From assembly GCA_024280065.1 (NCBI GenBank), contig JAJRQX010000059.1, positions 1 through 12,859 of the forward strand: a DNA stretch of 12,859 nt, read 5' to 3'. Shown here in pieces: positions 1,225-12,859 of the stretch. The notes beneath the pieces are model-generated. The model worked only from the letters and a program-made list of their open reading frames with translations. It had not been told where the DNA came from and did no database searches. Each line of letters opens with the position of its first letter. The stretch's first letter is position 1. This stretch comes from Aquificota bacterium (GTDB lineage: Bacteria > Aquificota > Aquificia > Aquificales > Aquificaceae). The position numbers and the translations under genes were made by a program.

Positions 1225-2404
1225 TCCTGAGAACCCTCACCACATTCTCCTTTGATGCCCTCATCGCAGGAAGCAGGGATGAGAGAAAAGAGAGAAACAG
1301 AGTCCCGGTAAAGACAGCCGTGAGGTCGGTTACCTTTATGTGAACGGGTATGTAACTCATGAGGTAGACCTCCTCAGGGACCCTTATCAGCTTATACTCG
1401 TTGACCAGGTAGGCTATCCCGAAGGAGGCAAGGATCCCCGAAACCGCACCCACAACACCTATGGTCATGCCGACAAACAGGAATATCCTGAGGATGTCGG
1501 AGCTCTTCATACCGAAGGTCTTAAGTACCGCTATGTCCCTCACCTTCTCCCTCCCCTTAACGAACAGGAGGCTAGTTATGTTGAAGGAGGCAACCAGAAC
1601 CATGAGCAGTAATATCAGGAAGAGGGCCAGCTTCTCAAGCTGCAGGGCGTTGAAGAGGGGTCTGTTGAGGTCTATCCAGGACCTCACTATGAGCCCCTTA
1701 ACACCCACAGTTTGGAGTATCAGCTCTTTAACTTCTTGGGCCCTGTATGGGTCCTTTATATAGACCTCAAGACCGTCAAACTTAAAGCCCCTTTTAAAGA
1801 ACCTCTTCGCCTCAGCGTGCCTCATGTAAACTATGACAAAGTCCCTGTCGTATGAGCCCGTGTGGAATATACCCCCGACCCTGACCTCTTTCGTCTTGGG
1901 GACAAACCCGGTGGGCGTCCTTATGCCCATCGGCGAGACAAGTATAACTCTGTCACCTACGAAGGCACCGAGAACTTCCGCGATACCTTTTCCTATAACC
2001 AGGTCCTTCAAGGTTCCGCTAACTATCTGGGGTCCCACCACCTCTCTGAAGGCCTTGTCCCTGTAGTTTACAGCCTTGACAGTTACGGGCTGGACCCTGT
2101 CCTCTTTGACCAGTATGGCGTTGTAAAGAGTAAAAGGAAGGACGTCAACCACCTCCGGTATGTTCTCTATCCTCCTTATGAAGTTCCTGAGGTCCTCATA
2201 ACCTGTAGAGCTGACAATTATGTGGGGAGCACTTGAGAGTATCTTCTCCTTGAGGGAGTCCTGAAAACCTGTGAACACACCGAGGGTAAGTAGGATGGCA
2301 CAAACGCTCAGAAAAACACCGAAGAAGGATATAAGGGTTATGAGGAGGGTGCTTCCCCTGACCGAGATCAGGTATCTTAAGGCTATCTTCAGCGTTAGAC
2401 CCAT
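1217..2404 (-). CDS. LolC/LolE-family lipoprotein-releasing permease
   Basis: 395 aa inner-membrane permease, the usual family length. The N-terminus (ALRYLISVRG followed by a hydrophobic stretch at about 20-45 ending in GVFTGFQ) matches the LolC/E/F start, with the first transmembrane helix followed by a large periplasmic domain (about 50-260). Three hydrophobic helices follow at about 265-290, 310-340 and 365-385, giving the 1+3 topology of FtsX/MacB permeases. The cytoplasmic segment KGREKVRDIAVLKTFGMKS is the coupling region that docks on the ATPase. Only one permease gene is present, so a homodimer (as in LolF-type systems) or a partner elsewhere is likely. Its ATG overlaps the stop of the PilZ gene (TGATG), and its own 3' end overlaps the ATPase gene. 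LolC and LolE cannot be told apart here, so no symbol is given. Confidence 0.87.
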   Translation of the reverse strand: MGLTLKIALRYLISVRGSTLLITLISFFGVFLSVCAILLTLGVFTGFQDSLKEKILSSAPHIIVSSTGYEDLRNFIRRIENIPEVVDVLPFTLYNAILVKEDRVQPVTVKAVNYRDKAFREVVGPQIVSGTLKDLVIGKGIAEVLGAFVGDRVILVSPMGIRTPTGFVPKTKEVRVGGIFHTGSYDRDFVIVYMRHAEAKRFFKRGFKFDGLEVYIKDPYRAQEVKELILQTVGVKGLIVRSWIDLNRPLFNALQLEKLALFLILLLMVLVASFNITSLLFVKGREKVRDIAVLKTFGMKSSDILRIFLFVGMTIGVVGAVSGILASFGIAYLVNEYKLIRVPEEVYLMSYIPVHIKVTDLTAVFTGTLFLSFLSSLLPAMRASKENVVRVLRNE

Positions 2405-3102
2405 CAGACCATCCTCAGGGACTGGATTATCTCCTTTTGCCTGCTGAGGACGTATCTCCTTATCTTGGTGATCTCGCTCTTCGGAAAGCTGACCTCAAAG
2501 CCCATCCTGACGTAAACGTCCTTCCCGAAGCCTACAACGTTTCTGAGCCTGCCGATACCCTTCACCTCCTCACCGCCCGGGAGGGTAAGACGGACCTTAA
2601 ACTCATCCTCCACCTCACCCTTCCTCAGTTTTTCGGAGATGTTCCTTAGGAGATTTATGAACTCCCTGTGGTTCTCGGGGTTAAGCACCACACCAACCCC
2701 GGTCTCGCTCACGTCCTTCGCGTGTGTATCAACTCTAACACCTTCCCCCTCTATTACCACCCTGACTGGTTTGTTTTCATCCGGCTCTACCCTGACGGAT
2801 CTCCTCTTTATGAACTCCGGAGGTTCAACAAAGCTTTCAAGCATAAGGACAAGTTCCTTACCGAGGTTGCTGAAGACCTGGGTCTGGGCGAACTCATCTG
2901 GACTCAGCTCAACGTAAACGGGGTCAAGGGTTGAGAAGGCACCCTTAAGGTGGGTCCTCCCCCAGTCAAAGCCGAGAAGCCTTCCCTCTTCATCAATCCA
3001 GTTCAGTCTGAGGTTAACCCTGACGGGTATCTCCTTGTATTTGGTGATCACGCTGTAGCGCTCGCCCGCTGTAAACACATCCCTCAGCTTCAGCCTTTCC
3101 AT
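2404..3102 (-). CDS. YcgR-like PilZ domain protein (c-di-GMP receptor)
   Basis: 232 aa with no signal peptide or membrane helix, so cytoplasmic. Residues 1-95 form a beta-rich N-terminal region in the position of the YcgR-N/flagellar-brake domain. Residues about 97-225 are a PilZ domain with both c-di-GMP signatures: R100-x3-R104 in KRRSVRV and D130-x-S132-x-x-G135 in DVSETG. The late GRLRNVV...YVRMGFEV stretch fits the closing PilZ strands. I chose the ATG at 3102; a TTG nine bases upstream is possible, but neither has a clear Shine-Dalgarno. It heads the operon with the Lol permease and ATPase, stop and start overlapping as TGATG. Coupling of a PilZ protein to lipoprotein release is unusual. 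PilZ is well supported; the output (motility brake, envelope control or other) is unknown. Confidence 0.82.
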   Translation of the reverse strand: MERLKLRDVFTAGERYSVITKYKEIPVRVNLRLNWIDEEGRLLGFDWGRTHLKGAFSTLDPVYVELSPDEFAQTQVFSNLGKELVLMLESFVEPPEFIKRRSVRVEPDENKPVRVVIEGEGVRVDTHAKDVSETGVGVVLNPENHREFINLLRNISEKLRKGEVEDEFKVRLTLPGGEEVKGIGRLRNVVGFGKDVYVRMGFEVSFPKSEITKIRRYVLSRQKEIIQSLRMV

Positions 3103-3113
3103 AGGTCTCAAAT

Positions 3114-3180: not shown

Positions 3181-3258
3181 GCCCCCGTCGTCTAGCCTGG
3201 CCTAGGACGCCGGCCTTTCACGCCGGAAACGCGGGTTCAAATCCCGCCGGGGGTGCCA
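3181..3258 (+). tRNA. tRNA-Glu (anticodon TTC)
   Basis: Complete cloverleaf with encoded CCA (3256-3258). Acceptor arms are 3181-3187 and 3248-3254. The D-arm runs about 3190-3208. The anticodon stem CCGGC/GCCGG (3210-3214, 3222-3226) encloses CTTTCAC with anticodon TTC at 3217-3219. The T-arm is GCGGG-TTCAAAT-CCCGC (3231-3247). The discriminator is G73, as in bacterial tRNA-Glu. The terminal acceptor pair is G1-U72, a wobble instead of the usual G-C. It reads GAA/GAG. Confidence 0.95.
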
Positions 3259-3261
3259 CTC

Positions 3262-3280
3262 CTGTTATAAAGATTTACAG
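3262..3280 (+). promoter_or_regulatory. Candidate enhancer (UAS) site 1 for a sigma-54 activator
   Basis: CTGTTATAAAGATTTACAG is an imperfect 19-bp inverted repeat (CTGT-N11-ACAG) centred about 120 bp upstream of the start site predicted from the sigma-54 promoter at 3364. It lies exactly 20 bp, about two helical turns, from a second copy at 3282. A related site lies before the second sigma-54 promoter. Role as an activator-binding site is inferred from position, symmetry and recurrence. Confidence 0.6.
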
Positions 3281-3281
3281 C

Positions 3282-3300
3282 CTGTCAATCCCATTAACAG
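3282..3300 (+). promoter_or_regulatory. Candidate enhancer (UAS) site 2 for a sigma-54 activator
   Basis: CTGTCAATCCCATTAACAG is a 19-bp inverted repeat with seven of eight arm positions complementary, centred about 100 bp upstream of the predicted start. As RNA it could form a short hairpin, but no U-tract follows directly, so a DNA-binding site is favoured over a terminator for tRNA-Glu. Confidence 0.65.
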
Positions 3301-3363: not shown

Positions 3364-3380
3364 TTGGCACGATCCTTGCT
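3364..3380 (+). promoter_or_regulatory. Sigma-54 (-24/-12) promoter of the amyloid-like operon
   Basis: TTGGCACGATCCTTGCT matches the sigma-54 consensus TGGCACG-N4-TTGCW at every specified position, with the -24 GG at 3366-3367 and the -12 GC at 3378-3379. The expected start is about 3390-3392. No competing sigma-70 hexamers are seen here. Such promoters need an AAA+ enhancer-binding protein; two are encoded further right, and two palindromic sites lie 90-130 bp upstream. Confidence 0.9.
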
Positions 3381-3394
3381 CAATTAAAAATGGG

Positions 3395-3646
3395 ATGGTA
3401 AGGAAACTGATTTTGGTTCTCTTGGGAACTGCGGTTCTGACCTTCTCCCAGGAGATCGCCGCGGTGATCGTATCGGAGGAAGAGCTTGATGAGGTGGTCT
3501 CCGGCTTCGCTCCGCAGGTGAAGGTCTCCGAAGACAACGGTCCTGAAATAATACTCTGGGACGAGGCCAAGCTGAACGGTTCCTTAGAGGTTCAGGATTC
3601 GGGCGGTATCAAGCAGTTGAAGATAGAGGTGATAGGTGATCAGTAG
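3395..3646 (+). CDS. Small exported protein with C39-leader-like motif, first gene of amyloid-like operon
   Basis: 83 aa, not a recognised family. MVRK plus a hydrophobic stretch to about residue 18 is a Sec signal peptide (likely cut near FSQ/E). Next comes SEEELDEVVSGF (27-38), the motif shared with the 346-aa and 141-aa proteins of this operon; here it ends in Ser-Gly, the closest of the three to a double-glycine site. The mature part (about 45 aa) is acidic and beta-prone, without the Asn/Gln repeat. I chose the ATG at 3395 because it gives a proper basic n-region. It lies only about 4 bases from the predicted sigma-54 start, so the mRNA would be nearly leaderless. An upstream GTG at 3350 lies before the promoter and is unlikely. 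It is about 27 bases ahead of the major repeat protein gene. It could be an accessory or processed peptide; function unknown. Confidence 0.75.
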   Translation: MVRKLILVLLGTAVLTFSQEIAAVIVSEEELDEVVSGFAPQVKVSEDNGPEIILWDEAKLNGSLEVQDSGGIKQLKIEVIGDQ

Positions 3647-3672
3647 TGAAATCTCATAAAGGAGGTGTAGCC

Positions 3673-4713
3673 ATGAGGAAGCATCTTTTACTCACAGCCA
3701 TCTTCGGAGCAGGGGTGATCGGATCACCCGCCCTAGCCCTTGAGGAGCTGTCCGAGGAGGAGCTCCAGTCCGTAACCGCTCAGGGTATCCAAATAATCAT
3801 CAACAACGATGACCCTGAAAACGTCCAGAACAACAACAACGACTCCGTCCAGCTCAACGACCAAGCCCAGAAGAACATCATAGCTTTCTCCATCATGAAC
3901 ATCTCCAACACCGCTGCCAACCAGTCCGCGAACCTGGCTCTGGCACAGGACACTGCGGATGATGTGGATATCCACCAGGACACCTACCAGCTGGCCGACA
4001 ACTTCGTATTCGCATCCCTTCAGGAGGTTTACAACGAAGACGACCCCGACGCCATCCAGAACAACAACAACGCCTCCGTCCAGATCAGAGGTGACGCCCA
4101 GCAGAACGCCATATCCTTCCATAACCTGAACGCGGCTAACTCGGCGGTTAACCAGGCGGCACAGGCCGTCGGTGTCTTCAACACGGGTGATGATGTGGAT
4201 GTAGACCAGGACGTCGTACAGATCGCCGTCAACGACACGGCTGCGGGTCAGGTGGTTGTGAACGACGGGCCCTCCTTTGACTTCGGGGACGCTCCTCAGA
4301 ACAACAACAACTCCTCCGTTCAGATCAACGACGAGGGCCAGCAGAACGTGATCGCCTTCACCCTCGCCAACCTGGCGGGATCGGCTGTCAATCAGGCTTC
4401 AAACCTCGCCCTGATAGACACCACGGGTGATGATGTGGATGTGGACCAGACCGCCATACAGTTCGCTCTCAACTTCATCATAACGGGTCAGCTCACCGTG
4501 GACAACGAGGACATAGACGGCATCCAGAACAACAACAACGGCTCGGTCCAGCTCAACGCAAACGCCCAGCAGAACGCAACCGTGTTCCAGGGCATGAACG
4601 CTACAAGCTCAGCTGCAAACCAGGCCACGAACATGGTGGGTGTGTTCAACACGGGCGAAGATGTGGACATCTATCAGCTCTCGGACCAGACGGCGGTCAA
4701 TACAAGCTTCTGA
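3673..4713 (+). CDS. Exported Asn/Gln-rich four-repeat protein, probable major amyloid/fibre subunit (FapC-like)
   Basis: 346 aa. Signal peptide 1-22 (MRKHLLLTAI...; cut after ALA-22), then LSEEELQSVTAQG (26-38), the motif shared with two neighbours. From residue 52 there are four units starting at Q52, Q129, Q209 and Q285 (spacing 77, 80 and 76 aa; the last is about 62 aa). Each unit reads QNNNN-x-SVQ(L/I), (A/G)Q(Q/K)N, then (S/T)A(A/V)NQ(A/S), then an acidic DDVD(V/I)xQ block. There are no Cys and little Lys/Arg after the leader. Regularly spaced Gln/Asn with small residues is typical of curli and Fap amyloid repeats. The start is set by a strong AGGAGGT before ATG 3673; an upstream GTG at 3646 is disfavoured. 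A strong hairpin follows the stop. FapC-like is inferred from repeats plus operon context; an adhesin or S-layer-like protein is the alternative. Confidence 0.8.
   Translation: MRKHLLLTAIFGAGVIGSPALALEELSEEELQSVTAQGIQIIINNDDPENVQNNNNDSVQLNDQAQKNIIAFSIMNISNTAANQSANLALAQDTADDVDIHQDTYQLADNFVFASLQEVYNEDDPDAIQNNNNASVQIRGDAQQNAISFHNLNAANSAVNQAAQAVGVFNTGDDVDVDQDVVQIAVNDTAAGQVVVNDGPSFDFGDAPQNNNNSSVQINDEGQQNVIAFTLANLAGSAVNQASNLALIDTTGDDVDVDQTAIQFALNFIITGQLTVDNEDIDGIQNNNNGSVQLNANAQQNATVFQGMNATSSAANQATNMVGVFNTGEDVDIYQLSDQTAVNTSF
3826..4710 (+). repeat. Four tandem in-frame repeats (about 77 codons) in the fibre-subunit gene
   Basis: Repeat units begin at 3826, 4057, 4297 and 4525 with CAGAACAACAACAAC. 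Each also carries a CAGCAGAAC-like core and an ACGGGTGATGATGTGGAT-like acidic block (diverged in unit 1 and altered in unit 4). The periods of 231, 240 and 228 bp keep frame. Divergence between units is moderate, so they are old duplications under protein-level selection, not recent slippage. Confidence 0.85.
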
Positions 4714-4774: not shown

Positions 4775-5095
4775 ATGAGGAAGCTTACTCTAACCCTCAC
4801 AATGGCCACGCTTACAGCTACAGCTTCCGACGATATTAAGATATCCTTCGGGGACGGAGGGTTCAAGTCCTACGAGGTGGTGGACAACACCTGTTTTTCC
4901 TTTGTCCTAAAACCCAAAGAGGTGACAAAAGCACCGGAGGCGGTATCAAGGGCTATGAAGAAGGCACTTATTGACATAAGGAAGATCTACAAGGGTAAGG
5001 CGGACGCCTTCATCAACATAAGGATAGCCCTTACCCACCTTGAGGGACTTGTCCTCTACCAGGTTTGCGGCGACCTTGTTAAGGAGGTCAGGTGA
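4775..5095 (+). CDS. Small exported protein, possibly YbjQ/RcsF-like fold
   Basis: 106 aa with a signal peptide (MRKLTLTLTMATLTATAS, cut near 17-18), so periplasmic or secreted. The mature C-terminal half (about 55-102) has a helix rich in Ala/Lys (AVSRAMKKALIDIRKIYKGK), then ADAFINIRIAL and a last strand ending LVLYQVCGDLV. This pattern (helix, GA-x-A-V/I-x-x-V/I-R, then a strand with a Gly-containing end) resembles the YbjQ/DUF74 and RcsF folds; two Cys (40 and 98) could form a disulphide. It lacks the C39-leader-like motif and the Asn/Gln repeat of its neighbours, so it is more likely a helper than a fibre subunit. GAGGTG precedes the ATG and the leader resembles that of the 346-aa gene. 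It overlaps the next gene by one base (TGATG). The fold assignment is tentative. Confidence 0.7.
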   Translation: MRKLTLTLTMATLTATASDDIKISFGDGGFKSYEVVDNTCFSFVLKPKEVTKAPEAVSRAMKKALIDIRKIYKGKADAFINIRIALTHLEGLVLYQVCGDLVKEVR

Positions 5096-5520
5096 TGTTC
5101 AGGATCTTGGCGGGGTTGTTCTTTATAGTGGGATCTGTGATGGCTCTCCCGGTAGAGGTTGACGATACAGAGCTTGACGCTGTTTACGCCCAGGGGTTCT
5201 TCTTCATGGACCATGAGGTGGTCAGCGACATAGTGAACGAACTCAGAGACCAGGTCCTCCAGATAGCTCTCCCTGAACAGGTAGGGGACGGGTCCATAAT
5301 AATAGCACCGGCTCAGACGGGGAGCTCGGAAGGTAGCCCAAACGACATAAACATCATATCCTTGGGAGATTACGCCCAGCAGAACTCCGTAAACACGGTT
5401 AATGCTGTGGAGTCCGCGGTTAACCAGGTTCTCAACATAATCATAATTATCAACTCCTCCATAGGAGAGGCAAACCTGAACATAAACAACAGCCTTGACG
5501 CTGTGAACATGATCTTCTGA
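5095..5520 (+). CDS. Exported single-repeat protein, probable minor subunit/nucleator (FapB-like)
   Basis: 141 aa. Signal peptide 1-17 (cut after SVMA), then DDTELDAVYAQG (23-34), the motif also found in the 83- and 346-aa proteins. Residues about 88-114 (ISLGDYAQQN...NAVESAVNQVLN) match the core of the 346-aa repeat unit: SVQLN-x-x-AQQN, then N-x3-SAVNQA. The rest is Ile/Asn-rich and strongly beta-prone (IIIIINSS, LNINNSL). One repeat core against four in the larger protein suggests a minor subunit or nucleator, by analogy with FapB/FapC and CsgB/CsgA. ATG 5095 is preferred over GTG 5092 because AAGGAGGT lies six bases before it. The start overlaps the preceding stop, and the C39 gene begins two bases after its stop. 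Amyloid formation is inference. Confidence 0.75.
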   Translation: MFRILAGLFFIVGSVMALPVEVDDTELDAVYAQGFFFMDHEVVSDIVNELRDQVLQIALPEQVGDGSIIIAPAQTGSSEGSPNDINIISLGDYAQQNSVNTVNAVESAVNQVLNIIIIINSSIGEANLNINNSLDAVNMIF

Positions 5521-5522
5521 AG

Positions 5523-6200
5523 ATGCTCTCCCTCCTGCTCGCGTTCTTTGTTCTGTTCCTGCCCGCCCCTCTGTTTGCAGGTGGGGAAGTTTACATATAC
5601 ACACCTTTCGGTCCGGTCAGGGTTCCTGTTAAACCTGTATCCGAGATAAAACACGCGGGTATCGTAAAACAGCAGTACGACTATTCCTGCGGTGCTGCGG
5701 TCTTAGCCACACTCTTCAGATACTACTTCGGTGAGGATGTGGACGAGGGCTCGGTTATAAAGGACCTCTTCAAGGTGGGTGATGTTGAGAAGATAAGGAA
5801 AAGGCAAGGCTTCTCCATGCTTGATCTCAAGCGATACGCCCTCATGAAGGGTTATAAGGCTACAGGCTACAAAGCAACTGTTGAGGATCTGGTAAAATTG
5901 GGTGTGCCTGCTATAGTGGCTATAGACGTGGGAAACTACAGACACTTCGTCATATTCAAAGGTGTTTACAAGGGGAGGGTTATACTGGCAGACCCCGCCT
6001 TCGGGAACACGGTCATATCGGTAGGTGAGTTCAGAAAGATGTGGGTTAGGAACATAGCTCTGGTGATAAGACCCAAGGAAGGTGATTTTAAGAGGAAGGG
6101 CATCTCCGAGGAGGACCTCGTTATAGTGAGGGATGACCTCCTGAGGCTGATATTCGTCCCTCAGAGCCTGCCCGTTTACAGGAGCACAGCTGACTTCTGA
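5523..6200 (+). CDS. Secreted C39-family cysteine peptidase (FapD-like)
   Basis: 225 aa. A hydrophobic signal peptide (1-19, ...PAPLFA/GGE) places the enzyme in the periplasm. The C39 fold (residues about 43-180) shows the oxyanion Gln50, catalytic Cys56 in QQYDYSCGAAVLATLF, His141 in NYRHFVIFKGV and Asp157 in ILADPAFG, so the triad is complete. Known C39 peptidases cut after double-glycine leaders and are usually fused to ABC exporters; stand-alone secreted ones occur in the Fap operon (FapD). There is no ABC transporter domain here. It lies between the FapB-like gene (2 bases away) and the barrel gene (13 bases), and three upstream gene products carry a leader-like E-L-x-x-V motif, its probable substrates. 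The start is set by ATG 5523, though the ribosome site is weak and translation may be coupled. Confidence 0.85.
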   Translation: MLSLLLAFFVLFLPAPLFAGGEVYIYTPFGPVRVPVKPVSEIKHAGIVKQQYDYSCGAAVLATLFRYYFGEDVDEGSVIKDLFKVGDVEKIRKRQGFSMLDLKRYALMKGYKATGYKATVEDLVKLGVPAIVAIDVGNYRHFVIFKGVYKGRVILADPAFGNTVISVGEFRKMWVRNIALVIRPKEGDFKRKGISEEDLVIVRDDLLRLIFVPQSLPVYRSTADF

Positions 6201-6213
6201 AGGAGGGTCAGAA

Positions 6214-7194
6214 GTGAGAAAGGTGGCAGCTGTCCTGACGCTATTTTTTGCCTCCTTATCCACAGCTCAGGAGGAAGCCCGTGTCCTCACCCAGTTTGAG
6301 AGGGATTACATACTCCTCAAAAGGGGTCAGTACGAAATAGAGGAGAACTTCTCCTACGTTTACATGAGCGTGAACCAGGTTTTCCTCCAGGGTTTTGCCA
6401 TACTTGACCCCATATTCCTGACCCTCGGGCAGTTCGGTATAGAGAGGGTGAGGAGGCACATATTCATGAACATCTTCAGCCTCAGATACGGCGTCAGGGA
6501 CCACCTCCAGGTGGAGATGGCGGTTCCAGTGATATACAGATACGAGGAGGGTTCGGTCCCGGAAACAGGGGTGGATAAGTCCGCAAGCAGGTTCGGCCTC
6601 GGGGATATGGCCTTCGGTCTCAGCTACCAGCCCCTCAGGGAATCCCACAGTAGACCTGCGGTTATACTTTCCCTAGCCTTTAAGACGAGGACAGGAAAAG
6701 GTCCCTTTGACATAGACCCTAATGAGGATGTCCCTACCGGGAGCGGTTTCTATTCGGTCAAAGGCGGTGTCAGTATCCTTAAGGGTCTTGACCCTGTCGT
6801 CATCTTCGGAGGTGTAGCCTACTCCTACAACATAACCCAGAGGGTAAACAGGTTGATACTCCCACAGGTCGTATCAGGGTCTCCCACTTTTGTGGAGAAG
6901 TTTGACCCAGGAGACACCATATCCCTGAACGCGGGCTTTGCCTACGCACTCTCCTACAAGTTCTCACTCAGCTTTCAGTACGTCCAGAATTACACCCTTC
7001 ACACATACATATGGATAAGGAACGAGGGTAGGAAGAGGGTCCTTAACTCCCAGATAAACGTCGCTATGCTCAAGGTGGGGACTTCTTGGAACGTGTCCAA
7101 GTCAACATCCATCAACGTCGGAGTGTCCATCGGACTTACGGGAGACTCCCCCGATTACATACTGGAGGTCAGAATACCTTACAGATTCTTTTAG
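6214..7194 (+). CDS. Outer-membrane beta-barrel, probable fibre export pore (FapF-like)
   Basis: 326 aa starting at GTG 6214, with GGAGGG six bases upstream. Signal peptide 1-18 (ASLSTA/QEE). The mature protein is a series of alternating amphipathic strands rich in Tyr/Gly (for example FGGVAYSYNI, LSFQYVQNYTLHTYIW) and ends ILEVRIPYRFF, whose terminal Phe is the usual outer-membrane assembly signal. The beginning (ERDYILLKRGQYEIEENFSYVY) resembles the Phenol_MetA_deg-like transporter/FapF group. It is the last gene of the operon, directly after the C39 peptidase, as expected for a pore that exports the repeat proteins. Unlike Pseudomonas FapF there is no long N-terminal coiled-coil region. 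Barrel: confident. Substrate: inferred from context; a generic solute channel is the alternative. Confidence 0.78.
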   Translation: MRKVAAVLTLFFASLSTAQEEARVLTQFERDYILLKRGQYEIEENFSYVYMSVNQVFLQGFAILDPIFLTLGQFGIERVRRHIFMNIFSLRYGVRDHLQVEMAVPVIYRYEEGSVPETGVDKSASRFGLGDMAFGLSYQPLRESHSRPAVILSLAFKTRTGKGPFDIDPNEDVPTGSGFYSVKGGVSILKGLDPVVIFGGVAYSYNITQRVNRLILPQVVSGSPTFVEKFDPGDTISLNAGFAYALSYKFSLSFQYVQNYTLHTYIWIRNEGRKRVLNSQINVAMLKVGTSWNVSKSTSINVGVSIGLTGDSPDYILEVRIPYRFF

Positions 7195-7212: not shown

Positions 7213-7231
7213 CTGTTAAGCATTTTTACAT
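7213..7231 (+). promoter_or_regulatory. Candidate enhancer (UAS) site 3, upstream of the cellulose-synthase-like gene
   Basis: CTGTTAAGCATTTTTACAT aligns without gaps to the two sites at 3262 and 3282; the three share CTGTYAW-N4-WTTWACAK. Its centre is about 85 bp upstream of the start predicted from the sigma-54 promoter at 7281. A further CTGT at 7237-7240 has no matching right arm. Confidence 0.55.
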
Positions 7232-7280: not shown

Positions 7281-7296
7281 AGGCACGGAAATTGCT
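7281..7296 (+). promoter_or_regulatory. Sigma-54 (-24/-12) promoter of the BcsA-like operon
   Basis: AGGCACGGAAATTGCT has GG at 7282-7283 and GC at 7294-7295 with the required spacing, and differs from TGGCACG-N4-TTGCW only at the first base. The expected start near 7307 would give a leader of about 15 bases that begins right at the Shine-Dalgarno GGAGGT (7308-7313) of the ATG at 7322. Confidence 0.85.
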
Positions 7297-7321: not shown

Positions 7322-9436
7322 ATGGGTAAGGAGCTTGACGTCTGGAGGAGGTCCCTGGTCGTACTTTCGGTTCTCGTATCCTCCTTGTACCTGGTGTGGA
7401 GAGCTGGGACGCTCAATCCTGAGCACATGTGGTTCTCCCTGCTTATCTACGGGGCTGAGGTTTACGGCTTTATAACAAGCCTCCTGTTCTACTTTATGGT
7501 TTGGAGCTTCCCCGAAAGAAAACCTAAACCTCCGAGACCCGGGCTCAAGGTTGACGTCTTCATCCCCACGCTGAACGAACCCCTGGACGTCCTCAGGAAG
7601 ACTATCTTAGGGTGTCTTAACATGAGGTATCCTCACAGAACCTATGTTCTGGACGACGGTAACAGACCCGAGGTTAAGAAGCTCTGTGAGGAGCTCGGCT
7701 GTGGCTACATAACGAGGGAAAGTAACAGGTTCGCCAAGGCTGGAAACCTGAACAACGCCCTCAAATACACGGACGGTGACTTCATAGCCATCTTTGACGC
7801 GGACCACGTCCCCCAGCCCGACTTCCTTGAGAAGACCCTCGGCTACTTTGAAGACGAAAAGGTTGCCTTCGTTCAGACACCGCAGGAGTTTTACAACGTG
7901 GACTCCTTCCAGCACAGGAGGGTGAAGGGGAGGGTATGGCACGAGCAGGCCCTCTTCTTCAGGGTGATAATGAGAGGAAAGGACAGGTTGAACTCCGCCT
8001 TCTTCTGCGGTAGCTGTGCGGTCATAAGGAGAAAGGCACTTGAGGACATAGGTGGCTTCGCGGTCGGAACCGTTACAGAGGACCTCCACACCTCCATAAA
8101 ACTTCACTCAAGAGGCTGGAAGTCGGTCTACCACCCCGAACCCCTCGCCTACGGAATAGCACCATCAACGCTGAGACCTTACAAGACCCAGAGGGAAAGG
8201 TGGGGAAGGGGTGCAATGCAGGTGTTCCTGAAGGACAACCCTATCACGGTAAAGGGTCTCAACCTGTCCCAGAGACTGAGCTACGTAGCCTCCATGATCA
8301 CATACTTTGACGGGTTCCAGAAGCTCATATACTACGTGGCTCCCGTTGTGGTCCTGCTCACCGGTATATACCCGATAAGGGCTGAACTGGGTGAGTTTCT
8401 CCTCTTTTTTGTACCCCACATAGTCCTCTCACTGTGGTCCTTTGAGGAGATGGCAAGGGGCTACGGTAGATTTCTGATCCTTGAACAGTATAACATGATG
8501 AGGTTCTTCACCTTCATGAAGTCCGTCCTCGGGTTCTTAGACATAGGAAAGGTGAGGTTCAAGGTAACGGACAAGAAGATAAACGCGGGGTCCGGGATGG
8601 GGGAGGTTCTTCCACAGCTGGTCGTGGTGGCTGGGAGTCTCGTCGGGATAGTTTACGGGGCTCTCAGCCTCTCGCAGGTTTCTAACAGAGAGCTTTACAT
8701 AGCCAACATGTTCTGGGCCTCTTTAAACCTCAGCATAGGTGCCCTGTGCCTTCTCTGGACCTTCGGGAGAAAGGTCAGGAGGACCAGGTTCAGGTTCCCG
8801 GCAAACATACCCGTTGTGGTCAGAACAAGCATGAGGGATATCCCCGTTACTGTGGGTGATCTCCACGAGGAAGGGGCCTCTCTGATAACCAGTAGGTTTA
8901 TAAAGGTGGGTGAGGAGATAGAGCTGGAGATCGGTGGTTCCCACCTTAAGGGGAAGGTCTTATACATGGTTGTGAAAGATGGCCTCAGGAAATACGGTAT
9001 CAGGTTCACGGACGTGGACGAGAGGAGCAAAGACAGGGTAAGACTTATGGCACTCGGACTACTGATAACGAAGCTGATGAGGGACAGAGGAACACCCCCA
9101 CCCACACCTCTGGAGAGGTTCTTCAGCATGTGGAGGTTCAGGTTCTCAAGGAGGAGGAAAAGGATACCCTGCCAGCTTCCCGGAGTCGCCGTGACCAGCG
9201 GTAGCCTTACCCCCTTCTCTGCGGAGGATGTGAGCCCGGACGGTCTCAGGGTCCTCACTATGAGGCGGATAAGGGACAGACACCTCATCTTGGAGATTGA
9301 CGGAAGGGTGTTCCGATACGGTAAAGTGGTCTGGGAGAAAGAGATCTCCGTGAACGGTTTCAGGGCTTACAGATACGGCATAATGTTCTTAGGGGAAGCA
9401 CATGACAGAACGCGCCACCAATACTCCGCAGCTTAA
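7322..9436 (+). CDS. bcsA: BcsA-like cellulose/glucan synthase with two tandem PilZ domains
   Basis: 704 aa inner-membrane processive GT2 glycosyltransferase that would polymerise UDP-glucose and extrude the chain. Two N-terminal helices (about 10-28, 38-61) precede the catalytic domain with the full motif set: DDG 111-113, DAD 159-161, TED 252-254 and Q290-R-E-R-W294. More helices follow at about 328-350, 356-373, 430-450 and 460-480. FKVTDKK (413-419) is the gating-loop motif of BcsA (FxVTxKG, last Gly replaced). A first PilZ domain (about 486-580) has RxxxR, but its DxSxxG is degraded to DLHEEG (513-518). A second (about 608-692) has RRRKR and an intact DVSPDG (636-641). Family members normally carry one PilZ. 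No bcsB, bcsZ or bcsC is next to it. The 3' end overlaps the next gene by 35 bases. A non-cellulose glucan cannot be excluded. Confidence 0.87.
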   Translation: MGKELDVWRRSLVVLSVLVSSLYLVWRAGTLNPEHMWFSLLIYGAEVYGFITSLLFYFMVWSFPERKPKPPRPGLKVDVFIPTLNEPLDVLRKTILGCLNMRYPHRTYVLDDGNRPEVKKLCEELGCGYITRESNRFAKAGNLNNALKYTDGDFIAIFDADHVPQPDFLEKTLGYFEDEKVAFVQTPQEFYNVDSFQHRRVKGRVWHEQALFFRVIMRGKDRLNSAFFCGSCAVIRRKALEDIGGFAVGTVTEDLHTSIKLHSRGWKSVYHPEPLAYGIAPSTLRPYKTQRERWGRGAMQVFLKDNPITVKGLNLSQRLSYVASMITYFDGFQKLIYYVAPVVVLLTGIYPIRAELGEFLLFFVPHIVLSLWSFEEMARGYGRFLILEQYNMMRFFTFMKSVLGFLDIGKVRFKVTDKKINAGSGMGEVLPQLVVVAGSLVGIVYGALSLSQVSNRELYIANMFWASLNLSIGALCLLWTFGRKVRRTRFRFPANIPVVVRTSMRDIPVTVGDLHEEGASLITSRFIKVGEEIELEIGGSHLKGKVLYMVVKDGLRKYGIRFTDVDERSKDRVRLMALGLLITKLMRDRGTPPPTPLERFFSMWRFRFSRRRKRIPCQLPGVAVTSGSLTPFSAEDVSPDGLRVLTMRRIRDRHLILEIDGRVFRYGKVVWEKEISVNGFRAYRYGIMFLGEAHDRTRHQYSAA

Positions 9437-10094
9437 GTTCTTCGGAGCTTTCATAACCTCCCTCCTGGTCTCAGGGGTCTGCGTGGCTGGTCCAGACCTC
9501 TCGCTCCTCTCGGGTTACGAGGCGGACTCGGGAGATCAGTCCTACGGTTATGCGGGGACACTGATATCCTGGCGGTTCCTCGTGACCAGACTATGGCTGG
9601 ATGAAGTCAGATACAGCTTCAGGGTGGGTTCCGATAAGATAAGGGCCAGGGCTCCGGGTGTCAGCGGTGCCGTCGGAGTCGGTCTCAGACGGAAATCTTT
9701 CTTCCTGAATATCCTCGGCGGATGGGAGTTCAGGGACGTGAGGGTATCACCTCTTAGGGAGGGGATCAGGGTAAAGGGCAGTCTTGAGGGACCCCTCGTT
9801 CTTGTGGATGCGGGCCTGTGGACAGGGCTTAACAGGGTCTTTTTTGGAGCCTCCTACAGCTTCGCCACCACTTACCTCTGGGCCAGACTCAGAGGCCTGA
9901 GGAACCTGACGGACGGTTTCAGGGTAGGGGGAGAGGTGGTTGCTCACGGTAATGAAGACTACAGGGCTTTCCAGATGGGGGTTGTGGGTGAGGTTGATTT
10001 GGGACCCGTGTCCCTCTCCCTCAAGGGTGGTTACAAGAGGGACTCAACAGGAAACAAGGCTTATGGTGGGCTTGAAACCTACCTGGAGTTCTGA
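9402..10094 (+). CDS. Outer-membrane beta-barrel protein, BcsS-like
   Basis: 230 aa. A hydrophobic signal segment (about 12-29, ending CVA/GPD) is followed by strands alternating hydrophobic and polar residues, Gly/Tyr/Arg-rich, ending GGLETYLEF with the terminal Phe of outer-membrane barrels. The start of the mature part (LLSGYEADSGDQSYGYAG) and repeated paired strands resemble BcsS, the small barrel encoded next to bcsA in some cellulose operons. The ATG lies inside the end of bcsA (35-base overlap) with AGGGGA upstream, so co-translation with bcsA is expected. It might replace BcsC as the outer-membrane exit or anchor for the glucan. Its 3' end overlaps the convergent activator gene by 16 bases. 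Barrel: fairly sure; BcsS family: tentative. Confidence 0.7.
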   Translation: MTERATNTPQLKFFGAFITSLLVSGVCVAGPDLSLLSGYEADSGDQSYGYAGTLISWRFLVTRLWLDEVRYSFRVGSDKIRARAPGVSGAVGVGLRRKSFFLNILGGWEFRDVRVSPLREGIRVKGSLEGPLVLVDAGLWTGLNRVFFGASYSFATTYLWARLRGLRNLTDGFRVGGEVVAHGNEDYRAFQMGVVGEVDLGPVSLSLKGGYKRDSTGNKAYGGLETYLEF

Positions 10095-11506
10095 GATATC
10101 CGGTGCTTCTCCATCAGTTTGTATATGGTTGGTCTGGAGACACCCAGCATGGCTGCCATCCTGCTTATGTTACCCCCGGTTATCCTGTAGGCCTTCTCCA
10201 GCAGGTCTCTCTCTATCCTGTCTATATGCTCCCTCAGGTTAAAGATCCCTCCCTTGCTCACAACGGATGAGGACACCTTGGATGCGTCTATGTCAAGGTC
10301 TTCAACGTCCACATACTTCCTGTCCGTGAGGACGACAGCTTTCCTTATGACGTTTATAAGCTCCCTCACGTTGCCCGGCCAGGAGTAGTTCTTTATGAGC
10401 TCAAGAGCTTCGTTCGTGAAGCCTATTATGTCCTTATCCTGCTCCTTGGCAAACTTCTTAAGGAAGTATTTGGCCATTATGACCACATCATCACCTCTCT
10501 CCCTTAGAGGAGGCAGGTGTATGGTCAGGACCTTGAGCCTGTAATAAAGGTCCTCTCTGAACTCGCCCTTCTCCACAAGCTCCTCAAGGTCCCTGTTGGT
10601 GGCCGCGATTATCCTGACATCACACCTTATGGTCTGGGTCCCTCCGAGCCTCTCTATGGTGAAGTCCTCAAGGAACCTGAGGAGCTTGGCCTGAGCTTCC
10701 TGGGGTAGCTCGCCTATCTCGTCAAGGAAAAGTGTACCACCGTCCGCCAGCTCTACCTTTCCCTTCTTCCTCCTGTCCGCTCCTGTAAAGGCCCCCTTTT
10801 CAAAACCAAACAGCTCCGCCTCTATCAGCTCCTTCGGTATGGCCGCACAGTTTATCGCTATAAAAGGTTTGTCCCTCCTGCTGCTCCTCTCGTGTATCGC
10901 CCTTGCGGTCAGCTCCTTACCTGTTCCCGTCTCTCCGAGGATAAGGACGGGGTAGTCGGTGGACGCATACTTCCTTATGAGATCAAAGACCTTCTTCATC
11001 TGAGGACACGTGCCTATGAACTCCTTCCTCTCCTCCGTACGATCCTCCTCTGGTGTCTCCTTTGTCCTCCTCAGCAGTAGGTCGCCTATCCTTATCTGCT
11101 TCAGGGTGCTAACCAGGTCTCTCTTGGAGAAGTCAAGGGGCATACCACAGTGGCCGCAACGGTCCGCTCCGTCCCTTATGGTCTTCCTGCAGTATGGACA
11201 CCTCTTTATCTTTCTAAGGCTGTCGGTGAGGAGCCTTCCCACTATGTCCGCGAGTATGCTCTCATGCTCCTCAAATAGGATCACGGCCTTGTCGCTCTCT
11301 TTCCTGTAAAAACGACCGTTCAGGACGGCAGGTTTGCTCTTCAGGGGTAGCTTCAGCTTAACGCTCTTCTTGTCATCACACTCATCGTCAGCCACCTGAA
11401 TTTTCACACCGAAAAGGGACAGATCCACTCCCTTCGCCTTTATCCAACCACCGTTGCACTTTATATATACAGTCTCACTGAAAGGTATCCGCGGTGCCAA
11501 TCTCAT
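10079..11506 (-). CDS. Sigma-54 activator with PilZ-zinc ribbon-AAA+-Fis HTH architecture
   Basis: 475 aa cytoplasmic enhancer-binding protein. Residues 1-90 look like a PilZ domain: R2-x3-R6 (RLAPR) and D28-x-S30-x-x-G33 (DLSLFG), the c-di-GMP contacts. Residues 103-120 are a zinc ribbon, C-x2-C ... C-x2-C (CPYC, CGHC). After a linker, the AAA+ domain (about 163-395) has Walker A GETGTGKE (191-198), the sigma-54-contacting GAFTGA (238-243), Walker B GGTLFLDEIGE (256-266) and the WPGNVRE motif near 376-382. A Fis-type HTH ends the protein (GNISRMAAMLGVSRPTIYK, 445-463). No response-regulator or GAF input domain is present, so c-di-GMP would be the signal. ATG 11506 is preceded by GGGAGG. It is convergent with the glucan operon and likely activates the two sigma-54 promoters in this window (inference). 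Confidence 0.9.
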   Translation of the reverse strand: MRLAPRIPFSETVYIKCNGGWIKAKGVDLSLFGVKIQVADDECDDKKSVKLKLPLKSKPAVLNGRFYRKESDKAVILFEEHESILADIVGRLLTDSLRKIKRCPYCRKTIRDGADRCGHCGMPLDFSKRDLVSTLKQIRIGDLLLRRTKETPEEDRTEERKEFIGTCPQMKKVFDLIRKYASTDYPVLILGETGTGKELTARAIHERSSRRDKPFIAINCAAIPKELIEAELFGFEKGAFTGADRRKKGKVELADGGTLFLDEIGELPQEAQAKLLRFLEDFTIERLGGTQTIRCDVRIIAATNRDLEELVEKGEFREDLYYRLKVLTIHLPPLRERGDDVVIMAKYFLKKFAKEQDKDIIGFTNEALELIKNYSWPGNVRELINVIRKAVVLTDRKYVDVEDLDIDASKVSSSVVSKGGIFNLREHIDRIERDLLEKAYRITGGNISRMAAMLGVSRPTIYKLMEKHRISQNSR

Positions 11507-11573: not shown

Positions 11574-11585
11574 GATCCTTAAGAA
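11557..11585 (-). promoter_or_regulatory. Possible sigma-70 promoter of the PilZ-AAA+ activator gene
   Basis: On the minus strand TTCTTA (11585-11580), a 17-base spacer and TATAAT (11562-11557) precede the activator gene by about 50 bases. The -35 matches only three of six bases. It overlaps the divergent tRNA-Val promoter, so the two could compete for polymerase. Confidence 0.4.
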
Positions 11586-11657
11586 GGCGGGTAGCTCAGT
11601 CGGGAGAGCGCAGCCCTTACAAGGCTGAGGTCACGGGTTCGAGTCCCGTCCCGCCTA
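11585..11657 (+). tRNA. tRNA-Val (anticodon TAC)
   Basis: Cloverleaf: acceptor AGGCGGG/CCCGCCT (11585-11591, 11650-11656), D-arm GCTC-AGTCGGGA-GAGC, anticodon stem CAGCC/GGCTG around CTTACAA with TAC at 11618-11620, variable loop AGGTC, T-arm ACGGG-TTCGAGT-CCCGT, discriminator A. The first pair is A1-U72. CCA is not encoded, unlike the other two tRNAs here, so it must be added after transcription. Confidence 0.93.
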
Positions 11658-11756: not shown

Positions 11757-11833
11757 TGGTGGAGACGAGGGGATTTGAACCCCCGACCTCCGCCGTGCGA
11801 AGGCGGCGCTCTCCCAGTCTGAGCTACGTCCCC
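11757..11833 (-). tRNA. tRNA-Ala (anticodon CGC)
   Basis: Read on the minus strand: acceptor GGGGACG/CGTCTCC with the G3-U70 wobble that defines alanine identity, D-arm GCTC-AGACTGGGA-GAGC, anticodon stem CCGCC/GGCGG around TTCGCAC (anticodon CGC, reads GCG), T-arm GGGGG-TTCAAAT-CCCCT, discriminator A and encoded CCA (plus-strand TGG at 11757-11759). Confidence 0.95.
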
Positions 11834-11847
11834 TTACAGGAATATAA

Positions 11848-11877
11848 ATTATACTATCTGAGGGAAGATGACCGCAA
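11848..11877 (-). promoter_or_regulatory. Probable sigma-70 promoter of tRNA-Ala
   Basis: On the minus strand TTGCGG (11877-11872), an 18-base spacer and TATAAT (11853-11848), with a start expected about 8 bases before the tRNA 5' end at 11833. The -35 lies inside the first codons of the divergent NifA-like gene. Confidence 0.5.
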
Positions 11878-12859
11878 CGGGGGGAAAAAGCGGTATAGAG
11901 ATAAAAGAGCTAACGATCGTAAACGAGGTGGCCAAGGTTCTGAGCAGGGGCCTCGGGTTTGAAGAGGTTGCGGGAGAGATCCTTAAGGTCCTCTACTCCT
12001 TCTGGGGCGTTGAGGCAAGCTTTATAGCTATTTACGACAGAAACATAAAAGCCCTCAGGATAGTCAAGGCCTTCGGCCTTTCAAACTCCGAGATCAAGAG
12101 GGGGATATTTAAAAAGGGGGAAGGTATAACAGGCAAAGCCTTCAAGACGGGCATACCCATAGTGATCACCGACGTGATGTCAAACCCTGCCTTCCTGAAC
12201 AAGACAAAGGTAAAGGAGAGGTTGAGGGGGGATGAGGTCTTTATAGCTATTCCCATAAAGGTGGGCGGCGACCCGGTGGGTGTGATGGCTGTGTTCAAGA
12301 CCTTTTCCTCAAAGGAGAGTATAGAGAAGGGCATAGAATCCCTGATGGTTCTCGGGACGATGATAGGTATGTTCTACAGGCTGAGCGAGAGGATGGAGAG
12401 GGAGAGGAAGGAGTGGGAAGAGGAGAGGAAGATACTTCAGGAGGAACTTCAGAAGACCTACAGCATACACGGGATAATAGGAGTGAGTGAGAGCGTCAGG
12501 AACCTGATAGATGTGATCAGGAAGGTGGCGGCGACAGACTCAACCGTGCTGATAACGGGTGAGAGCGGGACGGGGAAGAGCCTGATAGCGAAGGCGATTC
12601 ACTTCTTAAGCCGCAGGAAGGACAAACCCTTCGTTACCATAAACTGTGCCGCGATCCCGGACACACTCCTTGAAGCTGAGCTTTTTGGTTACGAGAGGGG
12701 GGCGTTCACCGGTGCCCGCACATCAAAGAAGGGTAAGTTTGAGCTCGCCGACGGGGGGACCGTATTCCTTGATGAGATAGGGGACATGCCCCTTTACCTG
12801 CAGGCCAAGATCCTCAGGGTGATCCAGGACAAGGAGATAGAACACTTAGGAGGCGAGAA
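11868..12859 (+). CDS. NifA-like sigma-54 activator, GAF-AAA+ (3' end outside window)
   Basis: The frame is open from ATG 11868 (GGGAAG just upstream) to the window end: 330 complete codons. Residues about 15-165 are a GAF sensor domain close to that of NifA, with [19 protein letters not shown] and NPAFLNKT. A charged coiled-coil linker (about 175-200, [17 protein letters not shown]) leads to the AAA+ domain: Walker A GESGTGKS, the sigma-54 loop GAFTGA and Walker [12 protein letters not shown]. The end of the AAA+ domain and the expected Fis HTH lie beyond the window. GAF ligands in this group vary (2-oxoglutarate, redox or other small molecules), so the signal is unknown. It could, like the PilZ activator, act on the sigma-54 promoters here; NifA boxes (TGT-N10-ACA) are close to but not identical with the palindromes found (TGT-N11-ACA before the outer base). 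Confidence 0.88.

Follow-up and report, generated by a model that had tools for sequence, protein, structure and literature searches.

A putative c-di-GMP-gated sigma-54 activator with a PilZ input domain beside a fap-like amyloid operon in Aquificota

What signal is read by a sigma-54 activator that begins with a PilZ domain, and which genes does it turn on? The question is raised by a contig of an Aquificota bacterium (JAJRQX010000059.1 of assembly GCA_024280065.1), of which the whole analysed stretch, 12,859 nucleotides in length, is here called the window. A sequence-only reading had described one of its products as a PilZ-ribbon-AAA+-HTH protein with RxxxR and DxSxxG motifs, and proposed that it is a c-di-GMP-gated sigma-54 activator. 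The reading favoured here, to which we give a probability of roughly three in four, is that a PilZ-gated enhancer-binding protein turns on extracellular-matrix genes, namely a fap-like amyloid operon and bcsA. The gene and its parts are:

10079..11506, minus strand: PilZ-zinc ribbon-AAA+ sigma-54 activator-Fis HTH protein of 475 amino acids (open reading frame, Pfam and orthologue alignment)
11237..11506, minus strand: PilZ domain, residues 1-90, with R2xxxR6 and D28xS30xxG33 (PF07238, 25.9 bits, and modelled fold)
11144..11200, minus strand: four-cysteine ribbon, residues 103-121, with C103, C106, C117 and C120 (invariant in 28/28 orthologues)
10517..11017, minus strand: AAA+ sigma-54 interaction domain with intact GAFTGA (PF00158 and sequence)

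The open reading frame starts with the ATG at 11506, which is preceded by an in-frame TAG and a GGGAGG ribosome site. Domain search on the N-terminus bears out the proposed architecture: PF07238 (PilZ) covers residues 2-72 above its gathering score of 22.5, the motifs read R2LAPR6 and D28LSLFG33, and Zn_Ribbon_1 reaches 22.5 bits, below the cut-off of 25. The remaining Pfam matches are Sigma54_activat (247 bits), AAA_lid_14 and HTH_8, so that the protein has both the AAA+ sigma-54 domain with GAFTGA and the Fis-type HTH of a sigma-54 enhancer-binding protein. Its genome encodes RpoN and contains -24/-12 promoters with upstream sites, and both ATPase activity and activation of transcription are predicted from sequence. 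Residues 1-90 had been expected to form a PilZ barrel and, in agreement with that, the modelled N-terminus matches solved PilZ domains in a fold search. Many of the 34 leading structural matches of this predicted model are c-di-GMP-bound PilZ domains, and most align from residue 1. A sequence profile of residues 1-130 gave no match to PDB sequences, the structural similarity to PilZ coming via the fold search.

Non-ligand-binding PilZ domains have been described (PMC10333796), and the PilZ domain might likewise have ceased to sense c-di-GMP and serve as a protein-docking or dimer module of an activator that still controls fap and bcsA. This we consider improbable, as R2, R6 and S30 are invariant, together with the four cysteines, and residue 28 is Asp or Asn in 28 aligned orthologues (window protein included), with which the window activator shares 51-85% identity (27 comparisons); the c-di-GMP-bound structural matches also speak against it. 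The exception in its favour is genus g10 (L028-L031), where G33 is replaced by alanine. Left out of the alignment were near copies (L024, L030, L031, L034), one sequence cut by a contig end (L027) and one with internal stops (L046). Pfam matched PilZ in 27 of the 28 orthologues at E<=0.1. Counted by genome, R2/R6 and D/N28-x-S30 are present in 28/28 orthologues with the N-terminus in sequence (29 orthologues in total). All 16 PilZ-type sequences have the spaced PilZ motif, which is absent from the 20 Pseudomonadota fap-linked activators, the seven BrfA sequences and the other activators compared. Paralogues (L047, L206, L208, L209, L211, L212) match only from about residue 110-123 and start like REC response regulators. 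A protein search with the N-terminus gave nine matches for the window protein (itself included) and four for L036, mostly unnamed or else named only after Aquificota, Persephonella or a function; it sees close relatives only and therefore says nothing on presence elsewhere.

The c-di-GMP-gated reading is supported by these findings, and ligand binding and activation belong to its predicted part. In the proposed mechanism c-di-GMP would bind the N-terminal PilZ domain via R2/R6 and D28/S30, and the change would be relayed through the ribbon to the AAA+ ring. The ring, placed on TGTAAA-N5-TTTACA dyads approximately 60-180 bp upstream of the -24 box, would then open sigma-54 polymerase at -24/-12, activation thus occurring at high c-di-GMP. 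The targets would be the fap-like amyloid operon and bcsA, joined in relatives by further genes for secreted products, polysaccharides or signalling.

Several known regulators come close to this design. In MrkH the PilZ domain is paired with another kind of DNA-binding domain, and no sigma-54 AAA+ engine is known in it. As proposed for the window protein, MrkH is a transcription regulator that receives c-di-GMP through its PilZ domain (PMC12564702). BerB of Burkholderia cenocepacia is a c-di-GMP-dependent sigma-54 activator but, unlike the PilZ activator, it has no N-terminal input domain according to its authors (PMC5552954). FleQ, FlrA and VpsR are likewise c-di-GMP-binding activators of the NtrC kind, differing in that c-di-GMP is bound at AAA+/REC elements, in FleQ through LFRS, RN and ExxxR (PMC10333796, PMC9303241). 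With FleQ as precedent, c-di-GMP could act on the AAA+ domain of the window protein and PilZ be accessory. We hold this to be very improbable: of the two elements compared, LFRS aligns with ERKE and RN with RA, and their absence rules against FleQ-like binding in this AAA+ domain. The sequence-only reading had supposed that PilZ is undescribed as an input domain of sigma-54 activators, and no example was found in the literature searched, which included parts of two reviews and covered subscription papers only to a small extent. If the PilZ-gated reading is true, the protein would be, as far as the searches reach, the first sigma-54 activator to use PilZ as a dedicated switch. PilZ is the best understood c-di-GMP receptor, and the route from messenger to AAA+ could therefore be studied with a sensor of known chemistry.

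The surroundings of the activator gene are as follows:

2404..3111, minus strand: separate PilZ protein (RRSVR, DVSETG), divergent from the fap operon (Pfam and sequence)
3181-3258: tRNA-Glu
3395..3646, plus strand: first gene of the fap-like operon, small protein with signal-peptide-like start (start moved from GTG 3350 to ATG 3395 by promoter position)
3646..4713, plus strand: amyloid-subunit-like protein with four NNNNxSVQ repeats (sequence; homologues in orthologous loci)
4775..5095, plus strand: conserved fap-operon protein, function unassigned (conserved in orthologous loci)
5092..5520, plus strand: conserved fap-operon protein, function unassigned (conserved in orthologous loci)
5523..6200, plus strand: FapD-like C39 peptidase (PF03412, 71.9 bits; NF058616, 123 bits, below the cut-off of 330)
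6214..7194, plus strand: FapF-like outer-membrane pore (PDB FapF 5o65/5o67, E 5.5e-33; NF058560, 162 bits, below the cut-off of 700)
7322..9436, plus strand: BcsA-like glycan synthase with two PilZ matches (family matches and sequence)
9402..10094, plus strand: BcsS-like protein, convergent with the activator (PF17036, 65 bits)
11585-11657: tRNA-Val
11757-11833: tRNA-Ala
11868-12857: second sigma-54 activator, GAF type, NifA-like, cut by the contig end (family matches)

The fap-like operon is thus followed by bcsA, the BcsS-like gene and the convergent activator, with bcsA/bcsS lying between fapF and the activator. As in the Fap functional amyloid system, a FapD-like peptidase and a FapF-like pore share one operon. 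The window differs from that system in its FapD and FapF scores, which are far below the NCBI equivalog cut-offs, and in the bcsA/bcsS genes added in genus g1. Our literature search on Fap amyloid in Aquificae found no paper. The first PilZ match of the BcsA-like protein reads DLHEEG (His for Ser) and the second is canonical DVSPDG; BcsB was not noticed in the window.

The gene had been said to face a glucan operon, and it is indeed convergent with bcsA/bcsS. The activator is, however, convergent to the fap-like operon with or without bcsA/bcsS, so that the glucan operon is only part of the target. In a survey of 136 Aquificota genomes, the best matches to the activator fall in two classes separated by a gap from E 5e-114 to 2e-95. 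An orthologue, i.e., an upper-class protein matching from residue 1, is present in 29 of the genomes; in G017 it is cut by a contig end and in G093 (L046) it has several in-frame stops. The fap operon and its promoter persist beside this stop-laden gene, which is either a pseudogene or an assembly error. Matches to fapF at E<=1e-3 were found in 37 genomes, 23 of them strong (E<1e-30) and 14 weak or partial (19.7-30 bits, mostly N-terminal, all in genomes without the activator). Strong fapF occurs in 23/29 genomes with the activator vs 0/107 without; the six with an activator and no strong fapF are G070-G074 and G076. Strong FapD is found in the same 23 genomes, and weaker FapD-like matches (42-89 bits) include one of 75 bits in G067, which has no activator. 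Activator and fapF occur together in the same 10/17 genomes of genus g1 and the same 7/14 of genus g18. In g1 the activator adjoins bcsS/bcsA/fap where the contig allows, and in g10 and others it is located elsewhere.

From co-occurrence and location it follows that the activator goes with fap, the survey covering fapF/FapD, with bcsA outside the phylum count. A dedicated bcsA regulator to which fap is incidental would agree with the convergence of activator and bcsS in genus g1 and with the dyads borne by bcsA promoters. This is nevertheless extremely unlikely, since in the seven g18 genomes the activator adjoins fapF without a bcsA match in the stretch, and since strong fapF accompanies it in 23 of the 29 genomes, a count in which bcsA was not included.

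Control of both fap and bcsA by the PilZ activator is further suggested by their promoters, described with the patterns TGGCACN5TTGCW for the promoter and TGTAAA-N5-TTTACA for the dyad:

3263..3279, plus strand: upstream dyad 1 of the fap promoter, TGTTATAAAGATTTACA, 2 mismatches (dyad scan)
3283..3299, plus strand: upstream dyad 2 of the fap promoter, TGTCAATCCCATTAACA, 2 mismatches (dyad scan)
3365..3380, plus strand: -24/-12 sigma-54 promoter of the fap-like operon, perfect match (pattern scan)
7214..7230, plus strand: upstream dyad of the bcsA promoter, TGTTAAGCATTTTTACA, 1 mismatch (dyad scan)
7281..7296, plus strand: -24/-12 sigma-54 promoter of bcsA, one mismatch (pattern scan)

At <=1 mismatch the promoter pattern occurs twice in the window, at 3365 just before fap and at 7281 approximately 25 bp before bcsA. 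At <=2 mismatches there are four sites against 3.98 expected, and therefore only the strict sites are informative. A tRNA-Glu gene lies directly upstream of the fap enhancer dyads. Between the fap box and the likely ATG at 3395 there are 14 bases, a spacing repeated in L048 and L052, and this gap implies a nearly leaderless message; in g18 loci, L063 for example, the leader is longer and includes a ribosome site.

Boxes of the -24/-12 type also precede fap and bcsA in relatives. For each locus the best box opening a fap or bcsA unit was kept, and other boxes at <=1 mismatch were excluded (e.g., L050 16281, L052 18014, L053 12164 and L082 3777). In the fap loci without a visible promoter (L049, L050, L051, L069, L078, L079, L081) a contig end lies near the operon start. 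GAFTGA reads GAFTDA in L037, L041, L042 and L044 (genus g18), though boxes precede their fap operons.

The common dyad layout is two dyads spaced by approximately 20 bp at around -125 to -180, with a third near -60 to -95. Among 27 promoters picked blind to dyads (17 fap, 10 bcsA), none lacks a dyad at <=2 mismatches, and 24 have one at <=1. Together with eight promoters found via exact dyads, the resulting 35 contain 100 dyads, vs a shuffle mean of 2.3 and maximum of 8. Since the dyad had been recognised by visual inspection in promoters that then entered the counts, fairer tests were made phylum-wide. Exact dyads number 183 in the 29 genomes with the activator (6.3 each) vs 72 in the 107 without (0.67), and the reversed-dyad control gave 16 (0.55 each) and 42 (0.39), respectively. 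The window's genome and G023 have no exact copies, their dyads being degenerate. A composite of dyad and promoter is found in 22/29 genomes with the activator vs 0/107 without, and its reversed control nowhere; as the composite pattern was shaped on these promoters, the phylum-wide counts and the g10 bcsA matches described below are the fairer tests. It is missing in seven activator genomes (G008, G018, G071, G072, G076, G079, G089). The window's genome matches the composite once, at the fap promoter of the window; the window's bcsA box lies outside the pattern, its first base being different.

Co-occurrence alone does not name the dyad binder, and a neighbouring gene (11868 onward) encodes another sigma-54 activator, which has a GAF domain. 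It could thus be that another regulator travelling with the activator gene binds the dyads and that the PilZ activator serves other promoters. We regard this as quite unlikely: the boxes in the composite are of the sigma-54 type and depend on an activator of this kind, and none of the 107 genomes without the PilZ activator has the composite. Activators with a GAF-like N-terminus (by eye) are also found in genomes without the PilZ activator (e.g., L215 of G005, L221 of G057).

Exact dyads also point to further candidate members of the regulon. Among 20 exact-dyad places fetched, eight have a dyad-linked box at <=1 mismatch and 12 do not. In four g10 genomes they led to bcsA on a different contig, with a perfect box at the usual spacing, and the product is 50% identical to the window's BcsA. 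Other dyad-linked boxes precede a second Fap-subunit-like gene (G060), genes for right-handed beta-helix proteins (G009, G016) and, in G009, the gene of a DUF7948/SBBP beta-propeller protein. In G020 one more beta-helix gene is accompanied by exact dyads and lacks a box at <=1 mismatch. The composite sites number 33, and downstream genes were inspected for 11, two of which have no gene before the stretch end. In genomes without strong fapF the candidate targets include a HYDIN-like Ig protein (G073) and a family 4 glycosyltransferase (G074). In G070 a GGDEF protein (L294) is encoded 259 bp downstream of a composite, possibly forming a positive c-di-GMP feedback loop; the window's genome has 16 GGDEF matches. 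Three of ten scanned composite-site proteins (L297, L309, L311) have no family match. Most of these candidate targets serve the matrix or signalling, which fits a c-di-GMP activator. They provide a predicted c-di-GMP regulon, with promoters, enhancer dyads and targets, for part of a heat-loving phylum, and suggest that amyloid and cellulose are under one command.

The closest known protein to the PilZ activator is BrfA of Pseudomonas, with which the AAA+-HTH core of the window protein is 46-49% identical. In P. fluorescens PF07 brfA follows fapA-F in the reverse direction, fapA-E is under an RpoN promoter, and fap is lowered when brfA is lost (PMC9207406); BrfA has been reported as a direct c-di-GMP sensor (PMC13101488). 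Since BrfA is reported to sense c-di-GMP and drives fap via sigma-54, that control is already known and the PilZ input is the new part. BrfA and the window activator have in common the Fis-type sigma-54 activator, the convergent slot beside fap and the sigma-54 fap promoter, whereas the N-terminus is VpsR/REC-like in BrfA and PilZ plus ribbon in the Aquificota protein.

The same arrangement recurs in Pseudomonas: of the best 80 of 313 loci, 77 have an activator that follows fapF on the opposite strand, at no more than 0.7 kb in 76 and at 2.5 kb in one, and the remaining three stretches end within approximately 250 bp of fapF. The 14 of these activators inspected have a VpsR/REC-like N-terminus, and of the 22 activators of one P. 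fluorescens genome it is the fapF-adjacent one that matches the window protein best. FapF matches were found in 42/398 Pseudomonadota genomes. From 28 fapF loci fetched, 17 have activators (20 proteins) somewhere in the stretch, and 11 have none above 150 bits in the fetched stretch. PF20161 (VpsR) is present in 18/20 of these proteins, and PilZ is absent among the families listed for them (25 of 36). Conversely, PF20161 is absent among the families listed for the window protein (25 of 31), the N-terminus of which matches PilZ instead.

One fap-activator family may have swapped its c-di-GMP input, VpsR-type in Pseudomonadota and PilZ plus ribbon in Aquificota, while retaining the sigma-54 engine, a gene position convergent with fap and a multi-dyad promoter. 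The PilZ form would moreover govern a regulon extending to cellulose synthase, to secreted proteins of the beta-helix and beta-propeller types, to a polysaccharide glycosyltransferase and, in a single genome, to a diguanylate cyclase. We consider the chances of this exchange evenly balanced. In unrooted core trees, from which some divergent Pseudomonas activators and near copies were left out, a branch parts the PilZ and fap-linked activators from the rest (90/93 with LG+G4; 99/97 and 100/98 with mixture models). For them to be a clade, the root must be placed within the remaining activators, as one tree was drawn; in another tree the midpoint root falls on the VpsR-type branch, and then PilZ and VpsR-type activators are not sisters. 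A tree with BrfA held among other P. fluorescens activators was not rejected by the AU test (p 0.095). The two groups may offer a natural experiment in sensor exchange, with engine and target the same and the receptor different. The Pseudomonas fap promoter boxes were missed at <=1 mismatch and found at 2 mismatches. In eight of the Pseudomonas fap promoters with a box there is a dyad of approximately TGTYTC-N6-GAAACA at -81, different from TGTAAA-N5-TTTACA of Aquificota, and similar repeats are seen by eye further up.
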